Shown here: in pieces, positions 24,027 through 24,680 of the stretch
How the letters are laid out: every line of letters begins with the position of its first letter
Numbering within the stretch: position 1 is the first letter of the stretch
Origin: an uncultured Alphaproteobacteria bacterium
GTDB lineage: Bacteria; Pseudomonadota; Alphaproteobacteria; VGEJ01
Assembly (NCBI GenBank): GCA_913041535.1
Contig: CAJWJK010000006.1
Location: 1-64,000, forward strand
Direction: 5' to 3'
DNA: 64,000 bases
Made by a program: the position numbers and the translations under genes
Notes under the pieces: generated by a model
Seen by the model: only the letters and a program-made list of their open reading frames with translations
What the model was told of the DNA's origin: nothing
Databases searched by the model: none

Positions 24027-24104
24027 GTGGCCCCCTTATATCAGGAACAATCTTGGCTGAAACGCCAGTAATCTAAGGTTCAGGTTAACGACCAAAGGGC
24101 GCAC

Positions 24105-24133
24105 AACATATTCAAAGTCTGCGCCACACGCAA
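24105..24133 (-). promoter_or_regulatory. Candidate nrdJ promoter
   Basis: On the minus strand a TTGCGT -35 (24133-24128) and a TATGTT -10 (24110-24105) are separated by exactly 17 bases, giving an initiation point near 24098 and a leader of roughly 70 bases to the nrdJ ATG. The -35 overlaps the nearer NrdR-like box. The match to consensus is moderate. Confidence 0.4.
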
Positions 24134-24146
24134 CGATATTTTGTGG
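24131..24146. promoter_or_regulatory. NrdR-like box 1 upstream of nrdJ
   Basis: The sixteen bases CAACGATATTTTGTGG match the known NrdR box consensus acaCwAtATaTwGtgt at most core positions (C, ATAT, T-T-G-T-G). NrdR is the zinc/ATP-cone repressor of ribonucleotide reductase genes. The box overlaps the predicted nrdJ -35 element, a position suited to repression. Confidence 0.65.
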
Positions 24147-24161
24147 TAAAATGTAAAATAT

Positions 24162-24177
24162 ATACAATATGTTGTTT
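24162..24177. promoter_or_regulatory. NrdR-like box 2 upstream of nrdJ
   Basis: The sixteen bases ATACAATATGTTGTTT carry the near-palindromic core ACAATATGTTGT, again fitting the NrdR consensus. The box starts exactly 31 bases from box 1, about three helical turns, the spacing usual for paired NrdR boxes. A T-run following it is not preceded by a hairpin. Confidence 0.65.
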
Positions 24178-24302
24178 TTTTTGTTATTTTTCGCGGGTTG
24201 GGGGATTTTCCCATGCGGGCTCAATTTGAGGATCTGGACGAGCAGGTGGGGCGGTGGCATAGTCGTGTGTTATCAATGGCCTTTTAAGGATTTGTAATTA
24301 TT

Positions 24303-24680
24303 ATGGGTCTAGCTCGCAGTCTATTTACTTGGTGGGACGAGCCAACGTTGGCCGTGCGCTTGCTAACAAGGCTAAGGGGGGAGTGTGTTGGCTCAGATGA
24401 TTGGGGCAATAGATACTTCGTTGAACGTAAGGGTACTCGGAGATGGGTCTTATATAAAGGTCAGGTGGAAGCCTCAAAGATACCACCAGAATGGAATGCC
24501 TGGCTTCAGCGAACTACAGACTTGCTTCCAGTATCTACGGAGGTGCGACATTCGTGGCAGAGAAAGCATGTTGCAAATGCGACAGGCACGCCTGAGGCAT
24601 ATCGACCCCCAGGAACTTTGACTGAGAACAGCAGTGCGGAGCCCGCACCAGCTAAATACAAGCCTTGGCAACCAGAGTAG
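24303..24680 (+). CDS. NADH:ubiquinone oxidoreductase accessory subunit, NDUFA12 / 17.2 kDa type
   Basis: This is the bacterial homologue of mitochondrial complex I subunit NDUFA12 (B17.2), found in alphaproteobacteria as an accessory subunit on the peripheral arm. The 125-residue protein shows SLFTWWDEPT near the N-terminus, DDWGNRYFVERKGTRRWVLY (about 32-51), IPPEWNAWL (about 60-68) and the C-terminal ATGTPEAYRPPGTL, all family hallmarks. The last 20 residues are a Pro/Ala-rich tail. AAGGA sits upstream of the ATG. It heads the conserved NDUFA12-mlaD-DUF2155 set. The nuo operon itself is not in the window. Confidence 0.92.
   Translation: MGLARSLFTWWDEPTLAVRLLTRLRGECVGSDDWGNRYFVERKGTRRWVLYKGQVEASKIPPEWNAWLQRTTDLLPVSTEVRHSWQRKHVANATGTPEAYRPPGTLTENSSAEPAPAKYKPWQPE

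Follow-up and report, generated by a model that had tools for sequence, protein, structure and literature searches.

A phased pair of NrdR boxes upstream of a class II ribonucleotide reductase gene in an uncultured alphaproteobacterium

Results

The nrdJ locus and its upstream region

The window (the whole 64-kb stretch of DNA that was analysed) carries nrdJ, the gene of an adenosylcobalamin-dependent (class II) ribonucleotide reductase (RNR), and, divergent from it, a gene for an NDUFA12-like subunit of complex I (Table 1). The two genes share an intergenic region (24027-24302), and within it, upstream of nrdJ, lie two 16-mers that resemble NrdR boxes, their starts (24131 and 24162) offset by 31 bp. 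Both are present where the sequence-only reading had placed them and with the phasing that it had given. No match to the ATP-cone was found in the nrdJ product with Pfam.

Table 1 Features of the nrdJ upstream region, with positions in the window, and the nrdR gene on contig C8
Feature	Position	Strand	Details
nrdJ, adenosylcobalamin-dependent (class II) ribonucleotide reductase, 1207 aa	20403-24026	-	NF005736, 2123 bits (cut-off 1737); Pfam
NDUFA12-like subunit of complex I, divergent neighbour	24303-24680	+	NF006040, 137.4 bits (cut-off 135)
Distal NrdR box (from nrdJ)	24162-24177	.	ATACAATATGTTGTTT; core 8/8; matrix score 15.6, the highest in the window
Spacer between the two boxes	24147-24161	.	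15 bp, A+T-rich
Proximal NrdR box (to nrdJ)	24131-24146	.	CAACGATATTTTGTGG; core 7/8; matrix score 12.3
Weak candidate nrdJ promoter	24105-24133	-	TTGCGT (24133-24128), 17-bp spacer, TATGTT (24110-24105)
Possible third, weak NrdR box	24101-24116	.	core 7/8; 30 bp from the proximal box; matrix score 7.1
nrdR	C8:80829-81260		between glyA-like and ribD-like genes; 173-174 bits (cut-off 124.65)

We scored box cores against CWANATNTWG, which has eight specified positions and derives from the NrdR consensus together with a scan of the nrdJ upstream regions of set A (described below). The sole core mismatch of the proximal box is a G at core position 2, and of the two boxes the distal one alone matched the full consensus (ACACWATATNTWGTGT, at most three mismatches). 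With a position matrix built from 64 sites in 32 relatives, our own sequence excluded, the scores of 15.6 and 12.3 compare with a median of 12.45 in the relatives. The common spacer between NrdR boxes is given as 15-16 bp (PMC12051234), a length that sets the box centres an integer number of helical turns apart, and the 15 bp found here agree with it.

The candidate nrdJ promoter matches 7 of the 12 consensus bases (counted by eye), and we infer its placement from the letters alone. The nearer box had been said to overlap a predicted -35: the hexamer TTGCGT would be that -35, but the candidate promoter to which it would belong is weak, and a promoter scan of the region, which required at least 9 of 12 bases, found none. 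No riboswitch or other known RNA was detected in the region at E ≤ 1.

Residues about 296-373 of NrdJ resemble the N-terminal domain of YebC/TACO1 (PF20772, 23.9 bits, which does not reach the cut-off of 36). When 12 nrdJ proteins were aligned, 11 of them, including that of the window, matched PF20772 at E ≤ 0.01, and a literature search on such a stretch in NrdJ found nothing relevant.

The phased pair in the window and the genome

Single boxes are unremarkable in the window, where ACACWATATNTWGTGT with at most three mismatches has six matches (5.75 expected by chance). The phased pair is rare: after dinucleotide shuffling of the 300 bp upstream, one sequence in 2000 held a pair that scored as well at 31-32 bp, and with the relatives' matrix the nrdJ pair is the best phased pair in the window (28.0, the next independent pair 20.2). 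We searched the genome (2,088,478 bases in 39 contigs) for the 31-bp pair pattern, which with one mismatch occurs at two places, the nrdJ pair and C29:5315; at two mismatches or fewer the pattern is weakly specific (13 places vs. 7 for the reversed control).

C29:5315 overlaps the first codons of an ORF, and one of its boxes is weak (score 6.4); we took it as a chance occurrence. To judge by its sequence, this ORF probably encodes an inositol-phosphate synthase. In C29 (L066) the inositol-phosphate-synthase-like ORF stands beside a Pro/Thr-repeat surface-like protein; this contig looks unlike the rest and may be contamination.

Conservation of the pair in relatives

We compared nrdJ upstream regions in two sets of relatives. 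Set A comprises the regions from 54 of 58 loci, one from the same family and the rest from the same class; L008 was omitted for its short flank, and L045, L056, and L058 because the match starts without a start codon. Genomes with only internal fragments or with other RNRs, and a 130-residue fragment at a contig edge (G065), were excluded. Set B comprises 80 named loci among the matches listed, nearly all of them labelled with alphaproteobacterial taxa or as plain Proteobacteria; all 80 were kept, including one with CTG at the match start. No long upstream stretch is common to the two sets. As the core pattern was fixed after set A had been seen, set B gives the cleaner test.

Within 500 bp upstream of nrdJ, 62 of the 134 relatives (set A: 32/54; set B: 30/80) carry a pair spaced by 30-34 bp in which each core reaches at least 7/8. 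When both cores were required to reach at least 7/8 with a sum of at least 15 in 500-bp upstream regions, spacings of 31, 32, 33, and 34 bp occurred in 25, 18, 6, and 4 of the 134 regions, respectively, a peak at 31-32 bp over a shuffle background of 0.004 per spacing on average (five shuffled sets). Set B alone has 12/80 regions with 31 bp and 7/80 with 32 bp. Perfect 8/8 cores averaged 0.82 per upstream region vs. 0.007-0.030 in shuffles, and by a looser per-locus test (P values from 100 shuffles each) 40 of the 54 set A regions have a pair that beats 95% of shuffles. No pair at 30-34 bp with both cores at least 7/8 was found in the other 72 relatives, some of which perhaps have weaker partners. 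Comparison with related genomes, which had been proposed as a check on the boxes, thus shows phased pairs to be conserved.

Set A also has smaller excesses of pairs at spacings of 19 and 50 bp, as does set B at 50-51 and 62-63 bp; some of these spacings may reflect a third box beside a 31-bp pair.

The NrdR regulator gene

An nrdR gene, whose presence was another of the proposed checks, is found intact in the genome (Table 1; the names of its glyA-like and ribD-like neighbours are our own reading of the translations). Its product has both the Zn-ribbon and the ATP-cone domain, and all five solved chains that match it are NrdR proteins. The DNA-contacting residues of Streptomyces coelicolor NrdR are R12, D15, R17, R26-29, and R37 (PMC9110341); D15, R17, R26-29, and R37 are found at the same numbers in the genome's NrdR, and R12 is replaced by Q12. 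With respect to autoregulation, the nrdR locus with the 177 bp before glyA contains single sites and no phased pair.

No nrdR match was found in five of the set A genomes whose nrdJ upstream region could be used (G007, G018, G024, G032, and G095). Two of them, G024 (71% complete) and G095, still have the pair, so pair and nrdR track each other imperfectly; five nrdR-less genomes are too few for a test of whether the pair follows nrdR.

Other RNR genes of the genome

Besides nrdJ, PF02867 has matches on C5, on C38, and at the start of C4. Those on C4 and C5 belong to a second class II RNR (NrdJ_Z) that is split over C4:1-350 (L071) and C5:1-2005 (L002), the contig ends overlapping with TMQQGGGIG in common; no phased pair was found in the upstream stretch of this gene that was examined (L071). 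C38 ends within nrdA, of which it carries the first 286 codons; the best family for the encoded class I alpha subunit is NF006577. Upstream of this fragment are two 31-bp-phased sites (C38:2921-2936 and 2952-2967, scores 9.7 and 8.5). The view that only a B12-dependent RNR is present is accordingly true of the window and fails for the genome as a whole, where another nrdJ and the first part of a class I nrdA are found.

Neither a class I beta subunit (PF00268) nor class III NrdD (PF13597) had a match in the genome; the former may be missing because C38 ends inside nrdA. C38 could be foreign, given an estimated genome contamination of 4.25%; its G+C content (0.476) is like that of the window (0.460). 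Near the phased boxes upstream of the nrdA fragment (C38, L004 1175-1215) are two TTATCCACA motifs and a reversed near match; the motifs resemble DnaA boxes.

A possible third box

The sequence-only reading had also noted a weaker third element at the -10. It is present (ACAACATATT, 24103-24112) and may be a weak NrdR box (24101-24116). If it is one, the boxes starting at 24101, 24131, and 24162 might form a joint extended operator whose third member covers the -10. The spacings (30 and 31 bp) and the third core of 7/8 are in keeping with such an operator, and a third core of at least 7/8 at 30-32 bp on either side of the pair occurred in only 0.9% of shuffles. In the relatives, given a pair, third cores of at least 7/8 fill 9 of 600 slots at 30-34 bp vs. 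38 of 10162 elsewhere (4.0-fold, P = 0.001, both sets). The excess is, however, marginal in set B alone (P = 0.052; set A: P = 0.007) and absent from the 22 pairs of a 300-bp cut of set B. Furthermore, the window's own third box, at 7.1, lies under the lower quartile (9.45) of the relatives' boxes and was not seen at 7/8 or better in the one genome from the same family (G001, L011), and the extra box 0 of Escherichia coli nrdAB is described as irrelevant to binding (PMC12176259). On balance we regard a joint three-box operator at this promoter as unlikely.

Phased chains of more than two cores occur in 8 of the 134 relatives, with three cores in L017, L053, L109, and L111 and four in L012, L025, L055, and L110. 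One might generalize from these that alphaproteobacterial nrdJ promoters, the window's included, use arrays of three to four boxes at about 31-34 bp, on which NrdR would assemble beyond one tetramer and so give a steeper response to dNTPs for a class II enzyme without an ATP-cone; we hold this to be a speculative and rather improbable extension. In the literature searched, which leaves out most subscription papers, we found no description of three phased boxes upstream of nrdJ in alphaproteobacteria.

Which gene the pair serves

Because the pair lies in a shared intergenic region, it might control the divergent NDUFA12 gene, either instead of nrdJ or along with it. Of the set A loci tested, 18 of 28 have an NDUFA12 homologue near nrdJ, as do 20 of the 80 set B loci, and set B loci with NDUFA12 have a pair more often (12/20) than the others (18/60). 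Against this, pairs also occur at loci without NDUFA12 in the flank (7/10 in set A, 18/60 in set B), such loci making up 7 of the 16 pair-bearing loci in set A and 18 of the 30 in set B, and the genes that NrdR is known to regulate are those of RNRs. The flanks searched were 1-1.5 kb at most, so that a remoter NDUFA12 would be missed. Since pairs persist where NDUFA12 was not found in the flank, they go with nrdJ, and we consider service of the NDUFA12 gene, alone or jointly, to be quite improbable.

That the boxes are chance A+T-rich palindromes, as the unremarkable number of single boxes in the window would allow, is hardly credible, the computations speaking strongly against it: shuffling seldom yields such a phased pair, no other pair in the window scores as high, the genome has hardly any place that fits the pattern as well, and relatives show the arrangement repeatedly.

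Discussion

The two boxes are very probably a standard NrdR operator for nrdJ, at which NrdR loaded with ATP and dATP would repress the gene. In published work, NrdR tetramers carrying ATP and dATP occupy two boxes separated by about three turns, and both boxes are needed. By analogy with that work, high dNTP pools would load the NrdR tetramer with ATP and dATP; the loaded tetramer would bind the two boxes together across their three helical turns, kink the DNA, and bar RNA polymerase from the nrdJ promoter. When dATP drops, ATP-loaded NrdR would release the DNA and nrdJ would be transcribed. An absence of nrdR from the genome, or boxes not conserved in relatives together with an nrdJ promoter elsewhere, had been named in advance as evidence against NrdR control, and neither is the case, since nrdR is present and the pairs are conserved.

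The closest parallels are with two characterized class II systems. In S. coelicolor, nrdRJ and nrdAB likewise have two palindromic boxes about three turns apart, those of nrdRJ upstream of a class II RNR gene; there nrdR and nrdJ follow one another in one operon, whereas here nrdR is on another contig beside a glyA-like gene (PMC9110341). The P. aeruginosa nrdJ promoter also has two NrdR boxes before a class II RNR and is repressed aerobically, although that species possesses RNRs of all three classes and has an nrdJab operon (PMC4409342). Deletion of nrdR raises RNR expression, and in aerobic P. aeruginosa this extends to class II nrdJ; under anaerobic conditions, nrdJa is down in the nrdR mutant (PMC4409342). 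In Caulobacter, an nrdR deletion has been used with the expectation of raised RNR expression.

Among Proteobacteria more widely, a survey of 21 groups predicted 186 NrdR regulons in 20 regulogs and never found autoregulation (PMC5343134). The present genome is similar in both respects, with predicted NrdR control and no phased pair at the nrdR locus; that work is a catalogue, and the passages drawn on here name neither nrdJ nor the present lineage. Promoters with more than two NrdR boxes are described for Streptococcus pneumoniae nrdHEF (three boxes) and Listeria monocytogenes nrdAB (four boxes), which the nrdJ promoter here would resemble if its weak third box were real. They differ in arrangement, with spacers of 24-26 bp in S. 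pneumoniae and two separate pairs in L. monocytogenes, in contrast to the 14-15 bp here (PMC12051234).

NrdR control of a class II enzyme had been raised for this locus as a possibility. The control itself is well supported by the nrdR gene and the conserved pairs; it is not new, such control having been published for Streptomyces and Pseudomonas. The locus is a typical instance of a control system already well described, and it adds to that known circuit one clear case, along with 134 further nrdJ promoters for comparison. Only two points have some wider reach. One is the arrays of more than two boxes in a small number of relatives. The other is the class II enzyme without an ATP-cone match, for which feedback by dATP may act mainly via NrdR.
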